A stretch of DNA of 58,737 nucleotides from a virus: positions 1 to 58,737 of the IMG/VR virus record IMGVR_UViG_3300030107_004408; one strand, 5' to 3'. Position 1 is the stretch's first letter. Each line of letters begins with the position of its first letter. Below are positions 3,618 to 58,737 of this stretch, piece after piece. Both the position numbers and the translations under genes were made by a program. The notes under the pieces are model-generated. The model was not told the origin of the DNA and did not search any database. It worked only from the letters and a program-made list of their open reading frames with translations.

Positions 3618-4073
3618 GCCTTAAAATATTCAGAGCCTAAATGCCTAAGCTTAGCGCGTTAAATATGTTTCGCCGTAGGATAACGATATGCGTTTAACAT
3701 ATATTAAGGTTAAGGAATTTCGACTAAGGTTGTAGAAAAATAGATTTCTGGGACGCGTTCGATCAGCGGTTACGCCGATTTGCGCATTATATGGCAATAA
3801 TGTACTAATAACCTTATTCACCCTACGATTAGTCATTAGCCACCTGATGATAGTGACGGTTAAACCTATGTTTTCGTCGATGCAACATCATATGGGTTTT
3901 CTTGGCCGGTGTATCCTCTGAATAAAAAAAGAATAACCACGGGGGGGTGGTTGGTGGTAGGCGGGGCTGTGCAGTATATGGACCCACTGACTAGCAAGGT
4001 CGTTTGACGGGAATCAAACCTGCTCTTGTGTCGGTTGAACCTGCATTATCGTTAAATAGTTTAATACCCTGAA
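3618..4073. other. Gene-free block A with repeats shared with block B (about 56 kb)
   Basis: No gene is supported in these 456 bases. The block holds GATCAGCGGTTACGCCGATT (3761-3780), TGATGATAGTGA (3845-3856), a perfect hairpin GTTTGA-CGGGAA-TCAAAC near 4002-4019, and GGTTGAACCTGCATTATCG (4033-4051). The first, second and last of these recur in the same order at 55970-56178. The left part is AT-rich. It could be a control region or an origin; no clear sigma70 promoter was found. Confidence 0.5.
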
Positions 4074-4493
4074 ATGGCTGACGAGGTTGCTAGTACACCT
4101 ATGACAAGTCGTGACAGGACAAATCAGTGGCAATTGATACAATTAGCCATGGACAAAAATCAGCTAAACTCCCTGCTTCTTGTACTCTCAGACACTCTCG
4201 GCTGCTCAAAGTCGGAGGCATTGAAGTTCTCCCTTGAGTTCACGTTAAGTAAACTTGAAGCTGGTGCAGCCGAGGGGCTCACGTCTGTTCCTATCCTTGA
4301 CGCAGCCAGCAAGCTGGTGCTCGCCCAAGGGGGGTTCACAATGGACGAGCTACTCGACTACCTGTCTGAACGTATGCCCATCTTCGCACCGCATAAGACA
4401 AAAATATTCGCAGCCCGAGTGCTGAACGCATCGGGCTACGAAAGGAAGCAGTGCCGCAGGGGCAAAGAGAGGCCCCTACTATGGCAACGCTAG
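4074..4493 (+). CDS. Possible winged-helix DNA-binding protein
   Basis: The 139-aa protein is mostly helical. The C-terminal part (about residues 90-139), with FTMDELLDYLSERMP and then GYERKQCRRGKERPLLW, resembles the winged-helix tails found in phage regulators and primases. Function is inferred, so it is a candidate regulator of the early promoters. There is no Shine-Dalgarno site before the ATG. TTTAAT at 4060-4065 could be a -10 element that would put the mRNA start almost at the ATG, but its -35 is poor. Alternative starts at 4101 and 4149 also lack ribosome sites. The gene converges on the next one with two bases between them. Confidence 0.6.
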   Translation: MADEVASTPMTSRDRTNQWQLIQLAMDKNQLNSLLLVLSDTLGCSKSEALKFSLEFTLSKLEAGAAEGLTSVPILDAASKLVLAQGGFTMDELLDYLSERMPIFAPHKTKIFAARVLNASGYERKQCRRGKERPLLWQR

Positions 4494-42016: not shown

Positions 42017-43515
42017 TAACTATTCTCCGTGAATCTGACTCGCGACTCCCGCACAGGTCTGCGCACTCTGGCGGCCTTCTTCTTGGGGCGCAAGCGCTGC
42101 ATGTTACCATACCGCTTGCTAATCGTGGTCATTAGGTTTTCGTAGCTGGAGCGTGCAACTCCTGCCATCTCTGGGTTGCCCTGCGCTTCGTATAGCATGA
42201 CAAGGATACGCTCGATCAGCGCATCGATGGCTTCTACGTGCAGTCTGGGCGTGTCTTGATCGTGCACCAACGGTGCTGGTCTGCGCAACGCTCGGATATC
42301 GATCTCGTAACGATCGTCTGGCATAGGCCAAAATCGAACAGAACGGTACCCATGCGTTGTCTTCAGCCGGTGATTGTAGGCGGGTATCTCTGAGCCGTCG
42401 TGCTCATACACTTGCGCGGACCCATTTACTTCTGCCAGCAAGTGGAACACTTCAGATGATTCGATATTTGGTGTATAGCCAACACCACCAACTGGGCTAG
42501 ACGAGTACCTACGTACGTAAATACGCTTTCTAAGCCCAGATCTGCCTTTTCGGATTGCGTCCACAATAGCGCTACTAGAGGAGTCATACTTGCGGTAGTA
42601 ATCCAAGATATGGTCTACGTTCGGCAGCTCAACTTTGATAACGGTAAAGGGAGAGGCGCCTGGGTATTCCACTGTAGACGACACTGGGGAAGGGGCGCTT
42701 TCCCAAAGAGGCTCGGACAGATTATTGCTGTTTTTTACCTCGGAATCCCTCTTCCCCCACACATAGGTGTAGCAGTAGTCGAATTTGCCCGCTGGGTCTG
42801 GGCCTAGCCAACCGACTGCGTGCACTCCGTCCAGGGATGCGGTGGGGGCAATCGTAGGCGTATCAATTTGGAAATGCTTGCCTCTGAAAATACGGTAGGG
42901 ACGCCCTGTTTCGTTACCCCGATAGTCCAAGTACTCGTACCGTTCCATGTCGTACTGAGTGGTGACTTGGAGTGGGTAGTGGGTATTGGAGAACAGGTGG
43001 GCGGATCGGATGTCGATCAAGTCTGACGGCAGGTAATACTCTGACGTGAAGATACGGTATTTCATACCGGTATCTGACGTGTTGTCCCAGGGCAGATCAA
43101 TGGTGAATCTGTCAACGGTGTCGGAGCCCACTATTTGGGACCAAACTTCTCTAATTCGCCTGCGAATTACAGTTCCATCTGACTTCTCTACCTCTACCAT
43201 CCTCCCATCCCAGGTTCCGTCAGTCGTCCAGGTGGCGTGGTCAGATGCGGTAGATGTAGCGTACGTACGCTCTAATACGTACTCGTCACCAGAGTTTACG
43301 GATAGCCTGTCAGTTGACGTGCCCGTTGTCTGTGTAACGTCTGGTGCTGTGACGATTTTAATCTCGTCTTCAAAAAACAAGAACGGGGCTTCCAGCGATA
43401 AAAGCTGGTAAGCCCTGTTGATGAAGCGATCCACCTTAGCCTTGAACTCGGTAGACTGGTTGGGGTTCCAGTCTACCTGTTCAAGAACTCGGGTACGGAT
43501 CTCTCCCTTGTTCAC
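42016..43515 (-). CDS. Head-tail adaptor-like protein
   Basis: The 499-aa protein starts with a helical segment (VLEQVDWNPN, KVDRFINRAYQLLSLEAPF) like the adaptor or head-closure proteins that bind under the portal, and continues with beta-rich domains (about 90-400). Its position between capsid/decoration genes and the nozzle fits. The start was set to the GTG at 43515, just after the decoration gene's stop; the in-frame start at 43617 would overlap that gene by 98 bases and has no better ribosome site. Confidence 0.6.
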   Translation of the reverse strand: MNKGEIRTRVLEQVDWNPNQSTEFKAKVDRFINRAYQLLSLEAPFLFFEDEIKIVTAPDVTQTTGTSTDRLSVNSGDEYVLERTYATSTASDHATWTTDGTWDGRMVEVEKSDGTVIRRRIREVWSQIVGSDTVDRFTIDLPWDNTSDTGMKYRIFTSEYYLPSDLIDIRSAHLFSNTHYPLQVTTQYDMERYEYLDYRGNETGRPYRIFRGKHFQIDTPTIAPTASLDGVHAVGWLGPDPAGKFDYCYTYVWGKRDSEVKNSNNLSEPLWESAPSPVSSTVEYPGASPFTVIKVELPNVDHILDYYRKYDSSSSAIVDAIRKGRSGLRKRIYVRRYSSSPVGGVGYTPNIESSEVFHLLAEVNGSAQVYEHDGSEIPAYNHRLKTTHGYRSVRFWPMPDDRYEIDIRALRRPAPLVHDQDTPRLHVEAIDALIERILVMLYEAQGNPEMAGVARSSYENLMTTISKRYGNMQRLRPKKKAARVRRPVRESRVRFTENS

Positions 43516-46043: not shown

Positions 46044-46637
46044 CTATACTAAATCGTAAACTCTTTGGCGCTTTTTTTTCTGCAAAAGCCCATGCCCTGC
46101 TGCTTCTGCTAACTCGCCATGCTTAACCGTGCCGGGAACCGGTGAATCGCCAATAGTGGGTGCAGCTTCGGCCTTAGTCCCTAGTTTTAACTCAGGAGAG
46201 TGATGCTCCTGCGTCAGGGTGTTTTTGGCTGCGCTTTTGCCGAAATCTTTTAGCATTTGCTTAGTTTCCGGCTCTTTCAGCGCCTCCCGCAGCTTACTAG
46301 TTTTTGCTTCTGGGGTTGGCGCTAAAAACGTACTCGGGTCCGCTAGTAGATTAGGGTCTGCTGTAATCGGAGCAGGTTTTTGCAAACCTTGGATTTTTGT
46401 GCCAGAAGGTGCAGTCATGCCCCCCTTCGCAGCGCCCTTAGCCACATTTAGGCCAGACATTCCAGCGTTACCTGCCGTGGGAAGACTGGCAACGGAACCG
46501 AGGCCAGCACCAGCACCAGCGGCACCGGCACCGGCACCGGCAGCACCGGCACCGGCAGCGGAACTGCCAGCCAGCGCCAAGCCGCCGCTACCAGCGCCTA
46601 CGCTTGCCATAAACGGCGCAAGGGCAGCAAGAGCCAC
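46044..46637 (-). CDS. Ala/Gly-rich protein of the head block
   Basis: The 197-aa protein has a hydrophobic Ala/Gly-rich N-terminal third, in part from a DNA repeat, and a charged rest. No family is recognised. It may be a minor internal head protein. The GTG start overlaps the previous stop (TAGTG). Confidence 0.55.
   Translation of the reverse strand: MALAALAPFMASVGAGSGGLALAGSSAAGAGAAGAGAGAAGAGAGLGSVASLPTAGNAGMSGLNVAKGAAKGGMTAPSGTKIQGLQKPAPITADPNLLADPSTFLAPTPEAKTSKLREALKEPETKQMLKDFGKSAAKNTLTQEHHSPELKLGTKAEAAPTIGDSPVPGTVKHGELAEAAGHGLLQKKKRQRVYDLV
46501..46560. repeat. Short tandem repeat of CCGGCA type
   Basis: A run of CAGCAC and CCGGCA units (GGCACCGGCACCGGCACCGG and neighbours) encodes the Ala/Gly-rich stretch of the 197-aa protein. 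Such runs change length easily by slippage. Confidence 0.7.
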
Positions 46638-54793: not shown

Positions 54794-55051
54794 CTACAGG
54801 TGGCGCGTCCACATGAAGTGACAGGCTAGGGCCTGTACCGCTAGCAGGGCTAGCAGTACGGGCGTCCGGATAAGGACGAAACCTAGCACCTCGGTGCGCC
54901 AGTCGTAGCGCTCGTGGGCTATCGCTCGGTGGGTGTCCTTCAGTCCTTGCCAGTAGGCAGCTAGCAGAAGACTGCTAGCCGCCAGGGCGCACACTGTGAC
55001 GCTCACCAGAGCGAAGAGGTCCCAAGCGTCGCCGGTGCCGGTGCCGCTCAT
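54794..55051 (-). CDS. Two-pass membrane protein
   Basis: The 85-aa protein has two hydrophobic segments (LFALVSVTVCALAASSLLLA, about 12-31, and GFVLIRTPVLLALLAVQALA, about 57-76) joined by a charged loop. It is translationally coupled to the zinc-finger gene by an ATGA overlap. The pair has its own promoter, with an operator-like palindrome. This is the layout of small exclusion or immunity genes, but that function is only a suggestion. A GC-rich repeat region follows. Confidence 0.7.
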   Translation of the reverse strand: MSGTGTGDAWDLFALVSVTVCALAASSLLLAAYWQGLKDTHRAIAHERYDWRTEVLGFVLIRTPVLLALLAVQALACHFMWTRHL

Positions 55052-55698
55052 GCTGCCACCTCGCGGCTGCGCTCGTCCTTCCATGCCTGCGCGATGGCGT
55101 CCGCTTCGCTCATGTCCTCGTCTTCCACTAGACCGCTAGCGTTGCGGTACATGCGCTTGATGCGCTTGGCATCTACCTCTGGGGTGTCGTCCGTGCCGTT
55201 GTTGAGCATCGCATTGGCCATAGCGATAGCGTCCCGCACATTGTCGGTCGCCAGCGCTGTCCGCAGTGCCATGTCCTCGCAAGCTTGAACCCCGATGCCT
55301 TCGGCGTCTGGGTAGAGTTCCTGAGCCTTGAGCTGCGCAGCCTTACGGGCCTCTCCGTCATCGCTCCAGTTGTAGAGGTGTGAGAAGTCGACTTGTTGCA
55401 AACCTCCTACGGCTCCACAGGTAGGACAGCAAGCCTTGCGGCCCTCTTCCTTGTTCCAAAGCCACTGACTGTCGGCACCGTCTTCCTTCCCTACGCGTAC
55501 GAGGCCGACCACATAGCCGGCAGCCTTAGACGAGACACCATTCTTCACGCGTTGCGCTATGGACCGAACCGGGATGGCTCGCGCTACGAGTTTGGTCCTG
55601 TCGTCTCCGAATAGGTCCGCATCGTTACGGGTGCTAGTGCTAGGGGCCTTGGCGCTAGGGGCGTTGGCTTTGCGGGTCTTGGTTGTCTTGGTAGTCAT
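55048..55698 (-). CDS. Zinc-finger protein of the leftward operon, unknown
   Basis: The 216-aa protein has a Lys/Thr/Ser-rich, probably disordered N-terminus, a CCPTCGAVGGLQ segment (about 94-105) that could bind zinc, and an acidic helical C-terminal half. It is not recognised. The ATG at 55698 has GGAGAAAGTG before it; an in-frame start at 55770 has none and lies in the promoter. It is a candidate early regulator or anti-host protein. The gene is monodirectional with its membrane partner, away from the rightward early block. Confidence 0.7.
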   Translation of the reverse strand: MTTKTTKTRKANAPSAKAPSTSTRNDADLFGDDRTKLVARAIPVRSIAQRVKNGVSSKAAGYVVGLVRVGKEDGADSQWLWNKEEGRKACCPTCGAVGGLQQVDFSHLYNWSDDGEARKAAQLKAQELYPDAEGIGVQACEDMALRTALATDNVRDAIAMANAMLNNGTDDTPEVDAKRIKRMYRNASGLVEDEDMSEADAIAQAWKDERSREVAA

Positions 55699-55727
55699 CA
55701 CTTTCTCCGTTGTGTGATGTGTGAAAT

Positions 55728-55746
55728 CCGGGGCACCGTGCCCCGG
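55728..55746 (-). promoter_or_regulatory. Leader hairpin of the leftward operon
   Basis: CCGGGGCA, loop CGG, TGCCCCGG, a perfect 8-bp stem about 30 bases before the ATG at 55698, followed by ACAACGGAGAAAG. It matches the hairpin-plus-ribosome-site layout of the rightward early genes. Confidence 0.55.
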
Positions 55747-55756
55747 TCGGTCTGTG

Positions 55757-55798
55757 TGACCTACGGTCACTATAGCGTGTTAGGGCTGCGGATTTCAA
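55757..55798 (-). promoter_or_regulatory. Leftward early promoter with operator-like palindrome
   Basis: On the minus strand TTGAAA (55793-55798), an 18-base spacer and TATAGT (55769-55774). The palindrome GTGACC-GTA-GGTCAC (55757-55771) covers the end of the -10 box and the start site. The same 13-base core TGACCGTAGGTCA occurs at the rightward promoter near 56227, at the same offset from the -10 box. Confidence 0.65.
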
Positions 55799-56199
55799 GG
55801 GTTAGGCATCATTGTTACATTTCGTTACATATGGCCTGACCTAGGCCTAGCGGTCTAGGCTTAGAGGCCTAGCCTTAGGGCGTTATCATAATAGTTGTAA
55901 TGTTAAGGTCGTTTCGAAAGGTCCGCAGCACAAGGCGGCCAGCGCCAGATCGGGCCGGGCCAGGCCTGGGATCAGCGGTCACGCCGGTTTAGTAGCTACG
56001 AGCAGCGGTTACGCCGCTTTGCTTCGCTGATGATAGTGAACTAAGAGCCTTAAGGTTTAATAGCCCAAGGTCTGGTGGCCTAACGTTAGATAAATCAGGC
56101 GCTCCACGTGGTGCACGCCCCAAAACCACCGTTACATTCATTGACACGACCATATCCCAGGTTCAACCTGCATTATCGGAGGGTCAGTCATTTAGGGCT
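55799..56199. other. Gene-free block B with repeats shared with block A
   Basis: About 400 bases between the two divergent promoters, without a supported gene. It holds GATCAGCGGTCACGCCGGTT (55970-55989), GAGCAGCGGTTACGCCGCTT (56000-56019), TGATGATAGTGA (56028-56039) and GGTTCAACCTGCATTATCG (56160-56178), which repeat elements of block A in order. Its left part is rich in CTAG and in GGCCTAG/CTAGGCC palindromes. Confidence 0.5.
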
Positions 56200-56241
56200 A
56201 TGAAACCCTAACCTAAACGGGCTAAGATGACCGTAGGTCAT
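56200..56241 (+). promoter_or_regulatory. Rightward early promoter with operator-like palindrome
   Basis: ATGAAA (56200-56205), a 17-base spacer and TAAGAT (56223-56228). ATGACC-GTA-GGTCAT (56227-56241) covers the start site, sharing the core TGACCGTAGGTCA with the leftward promoter. A GTCATC-GTT-GATGAC hairpin (56237-56251) begins the transcript. It would feed the early block. Confidence 0.55.
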
Positions 56242-56364
56242 CGTTGATGACTTGGCGGAGCTATGTCTAGCTCCTTTGCTCTTTGGCATGGGCTGTTAAG
56301 CCCTTATAACTGTAGCAATCTTGTCGTGAGACACGTTGCTACTAACTTGTTTATCTCTTCGTTG

Positions 56365-56467
56365 GGGGGAGGTTGCATAGGCTTAGGCTTATGTAGCCTC
56401 CCCCACCTTTTCTACGTTGTAGTCCTGCTATCGGCTTTCGGTAGTAGGTCACACAATGGAGAAAACA
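56365..56467 (+). promoter_or_regulatory. Two-hairpin leader of the gene at 56468
   Basis: A long hairpin pairs GGGGGAGG (56365-56372) with CCTCCCCC (56397-56404), with further inner pairing. A second hairpin pairs CCTGCTATCG (56424-56433) with CGGTAGTAGG (56439-56448, with wobbles). ACACAATGGAGAAAACA and the ATG at 56468 follow. Confidence 0.5.
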
Positions 56468-56992
56468 ATGGAAGATACAGACCTAAAACTCGTAATGACT
56501 GATCTCGGTCGTACTCAACAGATGCTTAGCTTCCCTGCTCTTATGGAGTTGGCCGCTGCTCTGGTCAAAGCGGCTAACGACTTTGTGGTGGAAGGCATCA
56601 AGGCTGATGACGTTAACGCTGTTCCTTTCGAGGAGCTTAGTTACAACGTCATTATGGCGCTCGCAACCCTTCGTGAGGAGAGGCCGCTACTGTTTGATGC
56701 CCTGGATAAGGATGTTGACGGTATGCTCTACAGTCACGCCTCTGCCCATGAGTTTGAGCTTATGCTGGCTAGAGTTGATTTAGAAGATACCGCACGGGAA
56801 GCCCTGATTACGGGTAAGGATCCGCACGGTATTGGACATTTCGCTGCGGGCCTCTATGCTACGGATGCAGAGGTTAACGAGGACGACGGTAAGCCTCAGT
56901 ACATTGAGTGCGACGAGCAGTTCTCGCGTAGCCTTATGGACCAGTTGGCTAAGGACTTGCGTCCTACCTTCGATGACGAGGTACCGTTCTAA
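56468..56992 (+). CDS. Acidic early protein with SSB-like C-terminal tip
   Basis: The 174-aa protein is helical and acidic, and its last residues FDDEVPF match the SSB C-terminal tip (DDDIPF in E. coli) that binds many repair and replication proteins. No OB fold is evident. It may recruit or distract host SSB partners. It is the first clear gene after the rightward early promoter. The ATG at 56468 follows GGAGAAAACA; the in-frame ATG at 56456 is part of this site. It is coupled to the next gene by TAATG. Confidence 0.75.
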   Translation: MEDTDLKLVMTDLGRTQQMLSFPALMELAAALVKAANDFVVEGIKADDVNAVPFEELSYNVIMALATLREERPLLFDALDKDVDGMLYSHASAHEFELMLARVDLEDTAREALITGKDPHGIGHFAAGLYATDAEVNEDDGKPQYIECDEQFSRSLMDQLAKDLRPTFDDEVPF

Positions 56993-57644: not shown

Positions 57645-58737
57645 ATGCTACATAACAATAACTACCCACATGATGTGGTCGTACGTTCCTTTGCCATGGC
57701 TTTGCTAGTCCTTAGAGACAAGCTGCCTACTGGTATCGGAGCTTCGCCTCCCATGCTTTGGGGTGATGGTGGTCGCGGTAAGACTTCACTCGTTAAGTCT
57801 ATCGCTACTAAGGTTAACGTTCCTTACTACATCATTCGCTGCCCAGATGAGGAGCCTGCTAATCAAGCTGGCTACCCTGTGCCGGATATGAGTACGGGTA
57901 CTGTGCGTCGTATGCCTAGTCATATGTGTCACGACGTTAAGGCTAACAACGGTAACTTCATCGTGTTCTTCGATGAGCTTGCTGATGCGCCTAGGGCTAC
58001 CCAGGTTTCGTTTCACGCTCCCATCATTGATGGTGAGTGGGGGGAGGTTAAGCTTCCTCCTCATATGCGTGCTGCTGCTAGCAATCCACCGGAGATCAGT
58101 ACTACTGGTGGTACCATCAGTAACACTGTAGCCAAGCGCTTTGTTCACTTCTGGTATGACCCGAGTGAGGACAACTTCGTTAAGGCTATGATGACTCCTG
58201 GTGTCGGTGGTAGCTGGCCTGAGCCTGACGTTCCTAACCTTCCTAAGGATTGGGCTAACGAGCTTCCGGCTGCACAGTCATTGGTCGCTCAGTTCCTTAA
58301 GGCTAAGCCTGGGAACCTTACCCTTAGTAAGCAAGAGCGTGAGTCGCAGATTGAGTGGAAGCCTACTCCCTGTGAGCGTTCGTGGACTACTGCTATCGTT
58401 CATTACGCTGCATGCGTTGCAGCTAACGAGCCCGGCCTCATGCATTGCATGATTGCCGGTAGCGTAGGGCAAGGACGGGCTAACGAGTTCCTTACTTGGG
58501 TACGTAACCTTGACTTGCCTGACCCTGAGGACATCCTGTTTAACTGCGACAGTTACACCATCCCAGCTAGGACTGACCAGATCTTGGCTATGGCATCTAG
58601 TGTAGTGGAATGTGTTGTTAGGAATAACAACGCTGACCGCTGGACTCGTGGGTGGTCAGTACTTAAGCGTCTACTGGATAACGGACGTGGTGACTACGCT
58701 TCGCTAGTTGCTCCCAAGCTTGCGCAGAACATGCCTA
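57645..58737 (+). CDS. MoxR-like AAA+ ATPase (continues at base 1)
   Basis: The frame is open to the end of the window and continues at bases 1-173, giving 388 aa. Walker A is GDGGRGKT (40-47) and Walker B FIVFFDEL (105-112, with D110 and E111). The rest, with SNPPEIS-like sensor text and helical C-terminus, fits MoxR-type AAA+ proteins, which act as chaperones with VWA partners. The VWA/metallopeptidase is encoded 1.3 kb downstream. GGAGATAAGACAA precedes the ATG. Confidence 0.85.
   Translation, partial: MLHNNNYPHDVVVRSFAMALLVLRDKLPTGIGASPPMLWGDGGRGKTSLVKSIATKVNVPYYIIRCPDEEPANQAGYPVPDMSTGTVRRMPSHMCHDVKANNGNFIVFFDELADAPRATQVSFHAPIIDGEWGEVKLPPHMRAAASNPPEISTTGGTISNTVAKRFVHFWYDPSEDNFVKAMMTPGVGGSWPEPDVPNLPKDWANELPAAQSLVAQFLKAKPGNLTLSKQERESQIEWKPTPCERSWTTAIVHYAACVAANEPGLMHCMIAGSVGQGRANEFLTWVRNLDLPDPEDILFNCDSYTIPARTDQILAMASSVVECVVRNNNADRWTRGWSVLKRLLDNGRGDYASLVAPKLAQNMP
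58639..58737. repeat. Terminal direct repeat of the window ends (98 bp)
   Basis: Bases 58639-58736 are identical to bases 1-98; base 58737 is A where base 99 is C. This is the sign of a circularly closed assembly, or of a real terminal repeat. The last mismatch is probably an end-of-read error. Confidence 0.9.

Follow-up and report, generated by a model that had tools for sequence, protein, structure and literature searches.

The window analysed here is the whole 58,737-nucleotide stretch of the phage record. It contains a noncoding region at 55700-56456 (757 bp) from which genes are read in both directions. The first ORF downstream on the plus strand (56456-56992) encodes 178 aa; this side holds an operon with MoxR-like and DUF2201 genes, followed by a second noncoding region at about 3.6-4.07 kb and, past it, by primase, helicase, Sak4-like and DNA polymerase genes. 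On the minus side, an ORF of 216 aa (55051-55698) comes first and terminase, portal, capsid and tail genes lie beyond it. Both first ORFs belong to no known family: the ORFs flanking the control region had no match in Pfam, PHROG or NCBIfam, and no relatives of their proteins were found in viral contigs. The record is classed as linear. Its first 99 bases (1-99) and last 99 bases (58639-58737) were identical at 98 positions and an ORF spans the join, indicating a closed assembly of about 58.6 kb; the record either closes into a circle or has a terminal repeat. Six relatives (G1, G3, G5, G6, G7 and G8) had the same genome layout and a capsid protein 65-79% identical to that of the window phage. 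A host search through the capsid protein indicated no host.

Two exact copies of a 13-bp sequence, TGACCGTAGGTCA, were located in the control region, at 55757-55769 on the minus strand and at 56228-56240 on the plus strand. The element is an imperfect palindrome, since arms of 5 bp (TGACC and GGTCA) enclose a GTA centre, and the flanking bases lengthen the symmetry to 6 bp at the minus copy and 7 bp at the plus copy. Each copy lies at a predicted sigma-70 promoter. A promoter scan placed the minus promoter at TTGAAA (-35, 55793-55798) and TATAGT (-10, 55769-55774) with an 18-bp spacer, matching the consensus at 10 of 12 bases. The plus promoter, read from the sequence, matched at only 8 of 12, with ATGAAA (56200-56205) and TAAGAT (56223-56228) each holding four of the six consensus bases around a 17-bp spacer. 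Relative to transcription the two copies are oriented alike, and each begins at the final T of its -10 hexamer, which doubles as the motif's first T, so that the dyad spans about -7 to +6. When +1 was placed 7 nt past the -10 element, the putative start fell on the A of GTA, at 55762 (minus) and 56235 (plus). The original prediction had described two exact palindromes at divergent promoters, at an equal offset from the -10/+1 region and, by eye, nowhere else. The two copies and their equal offset were borne out: an exact-match search of the whole window returned these two sites only, and no copy with one mismatch. The right copy stood where it had been placed, but the left one is at 55757-55769, not at 55758-55770 as first given.

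Among the palindromes of at least 13 bp with arms of at least 5 in the window genome, TGACCGTAGGTCA alone was present at two places. At least one repeated palindrome of this kind arose in 10 of 150 Markov shuffles of the whole genome. When the 757-bp noncoding region was shuffled, a repeated palindrome arose in 11 of 30,000 trials (about 4e-4), a figure that covers the repeat alone, without the joint promoter register. Likeness between the two promoters also reached upstream of the motif (71% over 38 nt). This likeness, together with a genome-wide repeat that is not extremely rare, would be expected if the copies were a mere promoter duplication or had arisen by chance, carrying no regulatory meaning. 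Set against that explanation are the low frequency within the noncoding region and the fact that perfect promoters in other phages carry the motif at an identical position (described below), and we consider it very unlikely.

The leader between the plus start and the ORF at 56456 (56236-56462, plus strand) had more predicted structure than any other part of the genome (-103.6 kcal/mol, z -8.3). Near-perfect hairpins followed one another in a chain, comprising a 5'-terminal stem-loop, further hairpins and, at its end, an 18-bp terminator-like hairpin at 56365-56404. It may act as an attenuator or be a small phage RNA; an Rfam search gave no match. Folding of the minus transcript showed a GC-rich leader hairpin at 55728-55747. 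A repeat, GATCAGCGGTTACGCCGATTTG, occurred at 55970 and 56000 in the divergent region and at 3761 in the second noncoding region before ORF 4074, and may be either an origin iteron or a regulatory sequence. The stretch that was most conserved and structured across the relatives, at 43364-43514, was considered as an RNA element and rejected, as it proved to be coding sequence, namely the conserved beginning of an adaptor-like protein gene.

The dyad was then found in other phages. When 2.9 million viral contigs (IMG/VR) were scanned with TANNNTGACCGTAGGTCA, two copies, amid coding-looking matches, were present in one 61,337-bp phage, IMGVR_UViG_3300021438_000016, at positions 46521 and 49029. 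Both are at TTGACA-17-TATAAT promoters and in the register seen in the window phage. The two phages have only the MoxR/DUF2201 module (DUF2201 protein) in common, and one of the dyad promoters of the 61-kb phage directly precedes the MoxR/DUF2201 genes, as the plus promoter of the window drives that operon. The copies in the 61-kb phage are in tandem, as direct repeats 2.5 kb apart, showing that divergence is not essential. Their arrangement also bears on an invertible promoter cassette, in which the inverted 13-bp repeats would flank a 458-bp segment and a site-specific recombinase could swap the promoters. The repeats, with their asymmetric core, bound exactly the segment that holds both -35/-10 pairs. 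However, no recombinase was found in the window phage, the 61-kb phage has direct repeats and the other phages a single copy; such a cassette is extremely unlikely.

A second scan of the viral contigs, in which the arms were fixed and the centre was left free (TATAATGACCNNNGGTCA), returned 48 distinct contexts. A perfect TTGACA at 17 bp was present in four, compared with about 0.035 expected. All four were GWA-centred and in one orientation; two were those of the 61-kb phage, and the others were in L079 and L084, where the dyad is TGACCGAAGGTCA (the centre in the L079 lineage being GAA). The pattern pairing the perfect -35 element with the dyad is TTGACA-N17-TANNNTGACCGWAGGTCA. A looser scan added L147 and L150, both of the L079 lineage, and L146, which has an actinophage-like terminase. 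The promoter of L146 is the least certain owing to overlapping ORFs, and a second, partial dyad was present at its -35; the dyad TGACC-GWA-GGTCA probably occurs in this actinophage-like lineage as well. The terminases of the 61-kb phage and L079 fall into one broad group, and thus three independent terminase types (the window phage, the 61-kb/L079 group and L146) carry the element. The promoters of the 61-kb phage, L079, L084 and L147 have a dyad identical or nearly identical to that of the window, in the same register and at sigma-70 promoters. They differ from the window promoters in having near-consensus -35 and -10 elements, in being tandem or single instead of divergent, and in belonging to phages with another terminase type. 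Arm identity across phages is partly a matter of ascertainment and not fully usable as evidence, since the arms were fixed in the search patterns.

A search of named phages with the promoter sequences gave no match spanning the motif. We rejected the dyad as a general trait of strong promoters, as it was not seen in those of DSL-LC04, 023Pt_psg01, HTVC027P, HTVC023P and Pag-Yong1 or in other strong promoters. Motif-less strong promoters in the same or related genomes have no dyad at this place, indicating that it marks particular promoters. A 45-kb viral contig, L142, had TTTACT-17 promoters at 1424 and 4631 with start-site dyads TGAC-GTA-GTCA and TGACC-TCT-GGTCA; it may represent another lineage, with the element in a looser form. 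In L079 (reverse complement, upstream of 7116) and L084 (upstream of 8695), repeated GAACATT / TGTTCC sequences, some of them arranged as inverted repeats, precede the dyad promoter and are possibly a second operator set of that lineage.

At all eight promoter sites the dyad symmetry extended into the -10 hexamer, with arms of 6 to 8 bp, and the sequence read CC-GWA-GG with the centre facing one way. The sixth pair was A-T at five sites, G-C at one and C-G at two, while it was complementary in 8 of 52 controls. It differed between the two window copies (A-T and G-C). Between the orthologous promoters of L079/L084 and L147, whose leaders can be aligned, a compensatory change from A-T to C-G had occurred at this pair, indicating that the symmetry is maintained.

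In the window and in the 61-kb phage, the transcripts of both promoters are predicted to have AGGUC(A) at the 5' end and to form terminal stem-loops of 8, 4, 11 and 9 bp, each followed by a second hairpin; the 5' stem-loop is thus a feature that the 61-kb phage shares with the window, and the L146 transcript likewise has one. The constant start and the stem-loop favour an element acting at the RNA level. Its conserved part would be the beginning of the transcript, as the 5' arm of an mRNA-terminal stem-loop that protects or regulates the message, and the palindrome in the DNA would be secondary. However, the L079 and L147 leaders formed no terminal stem-loop on folding although their DNA dyad is complete, showing that what all sites have in common is the DNA dyad and not an RNA structure. 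The upstream arm TGACC would, moreover, be untranscribed if transcription starts about 7 nt past the -10 element. We regard an RNA-level function as quite improbable.

The same base pairs could act through the shape of the DNA. DNA minihairpins are extraordinarily stable when their loop is GNA and two or more G-C pairs close it (PMC4686876). The early promoters of phage N4 are hairpins extruded by supercoiling, and the rrnB sigma-70 promoter lost its activity when an N4 hairpin was inserted into it and regained it on inhibition of gyrase (PMC4496689). By analogy, the window dyad would be a hairpin with a 3-nt GNA loop and two closing G-C pairs on the non-template strand, with extrusion predicted under supercoiling. 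Extrusion would remove the -10/+1 region from the duplex, and the promoter would be active on incoming DNA while this is relaxed, and inactive after supercoiling by gyrase. The CC-GWA-GG present at every site satisfies the minihairpin rule (PMC4686876), N4 provides the precedent of a hairpin-silenced sigma-70 promoter (PMC4496689), and, in arms of 6 to 8 bp, the 5-bp core is constant and the sixth pair covaries. By contrast, arms other than TGACC were not above background in this register at about 2,700 promoter-like sites, one L142 promoter has TCT and not GNA at its centre, and the folding energies used fail to tell the two strands apart. The window shares with N4 an inverted repeat at a phage promoter with a stable 3-nt GNA-type loop closed by G-C pairs (PMC4496689). 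The N4 hairpins recognised by its virion RNA polymerase (vRNAP) are, however, on the template strand and centred at -11 of a phage-polymerase promoter (PMC4496689), whereas in the window the GNA is on the non-template strand and centred at -1 of a sigma-70 promoter. A 3698-aa protein of the window phage was considered as an N4-type vRNAP and rejected: it had no family or PDB match and no catalytic or otherwise recognisable vRNAP motifs. On balance, a DNA-structure switch at these promoters is doubtful, and a sigma-70 early promoter family with a built-in GNA minihairpin across -10/+1, serving as a repressor-free supercoiling sensor, is unlikely.

As the simplest reading we favour a start-site operator of sigma-70 promoters, at a probability of about 0.52, with the DNA minihairpin as its serious competitor. 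A dimeric DNA-binding protein, encoded by the host or the phage, would bind the 13-bp dyad centred on the transcription start and exclude RNA polymerase from the promoter, and its effect would be repression rather than activation. The operons leaving 55.7-56.5 kb would then be switched together, the plus one being the MoxR/DUF2201 operon and the minus one the 216-aa ORF, possibly with the genes beyond it. An operator is supported by the two exact copies at one register, by the absence of any comparable repeat elsewhere in the genome, and by the recurrence of the dyad at four perfect TTGACA-17 promoters. Whatever reads it, the dyad very probably does serve as an on/off control site; the strongest evidence is that phages largely unrelated to this one have the palindrome at an equivalent position in near-perfect promoters. 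Several points argue against an operator. The GWA centre has a single orientation, for which a symmetric dimer gives no reason, though the A at the start site could explain it. The unlike sixth pair of the window copies is odd for one protein contacting that position, and the plus promoter is a poor match to the consensus. The searches yielded no cognate regulator, nor was any protein established as common to all motif-bearing phages. An ORF 5' of the first dyad promoter of the 61-kb phage was considered as an XRE-type repressor and rejected; the full ORF looked HNH-type by eye and had no homologue in the other motif-bearing phages.

A further point against the operator is that the 13-mer was not found in the phage's own relatives G1, G3, G5, G6, G7 and G8. 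It is thus ruled out as an operator kept in that family, and the conserved element in several of its members is instead a 29-bp AGGTTNAACCT palindrome with the consensus CGATAATGCAGGTTNAACCTGCATTATCG. In the window phage this palindrome was located at 56150-56178 (listed at 56159), with its centre at about -71 from the plus start. A second copy at 4023-4051 (listed at 4032) lies upstream of ORF 4074 and scored 28.8 bits, compared with maxima of at most 15.8 in shuffled genomes; a third, weaker copy at 3848-3876 (listed at 3857) scored 22.3 bits. Copies were also present in G7 (30653, 30726 and 36701), G8 (32034 and 37511), G6 (7802 and 7875) and L041, and were absent in G1, G3 and G5; the motif had no match in genome contigs. 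Two copies were 73 bp apart in both G6 and G7. The 29-bp palindrome appears operator-like and is, from its distribution, a better candidate than the 13-mer for the phage family's own operator.

ORF 4074 (4074-4493, plus strand) encodes a predicted DNA-binding protein of 139 aa that is conserved in G3, G5, G6, G7 and G8. A winged helix was predicted at its C-terminus (pLDDT about 91), and Foldseek returned weak matches, mostly to winged-helix proteins. The protein alone had no significant Pfam, PHROG or NCBIfam match and belongs to no known family. A copy of the 29-bp palindrome is 5' of ORF 4074 or its orthologue in the window phage, G7 and G8. This position and the modelled winged helix mark the 4074 protein as a candidate to read the 29-bp palindrome rather than the 13-mer. 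It had been named, with the HTH protein of ORF 10224, as a candidate for a binding test at the dyad; neither was linked to that site, and the 4074 gene is tied to the longer palindrome.

The proposed start-site operator has a partial counterpart in mycobacteriophage BPs, whose P_R/P_rep region contains a 12-bp palindromic operator, CGACATATGTCG (PMC4557955). BPs has divergent promoters in one intergenic region, as predicted for the window, and in both phages a short palindrome overlaps promoter elements; the BPs operator has further copies at other phage promoters, as does the dyad (PMC4557955). BPs is temperate, a known repressor gene adjoins its promoters, and its operator is between -35 and -10 of P_R (PMC4557955). 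The window dyad is instead centred on the start site. As in a switch of the BPs type, the same putative operator is present at both window promoters, in exact 13-bp copies and in the same register. In contrast, no repressor gene was found beside the promoters, and no integrase, recombinase, phage repressor or other lysogeny gene was recognised among the window proteins scanned. The proposal that one repressor controls both directions as in a genetic switch was therefore upheld for the shared, promoter-centred dyad, which recurs in other phages, but the repressor and the lysogeny-type switch were unsupported.

That one 13-bp element recurs at a fixed register in phages whose terminases differ in type suggests that otherwise unlike phages share a regulator or, alternatively, a DNA-structure trick. 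A hairpin, if real, would be much more novel than an operator, and would mean that early transcription is timed without a repressor. The dyad provides a short, testable sequence handle on early-gene control in uncultured phages.
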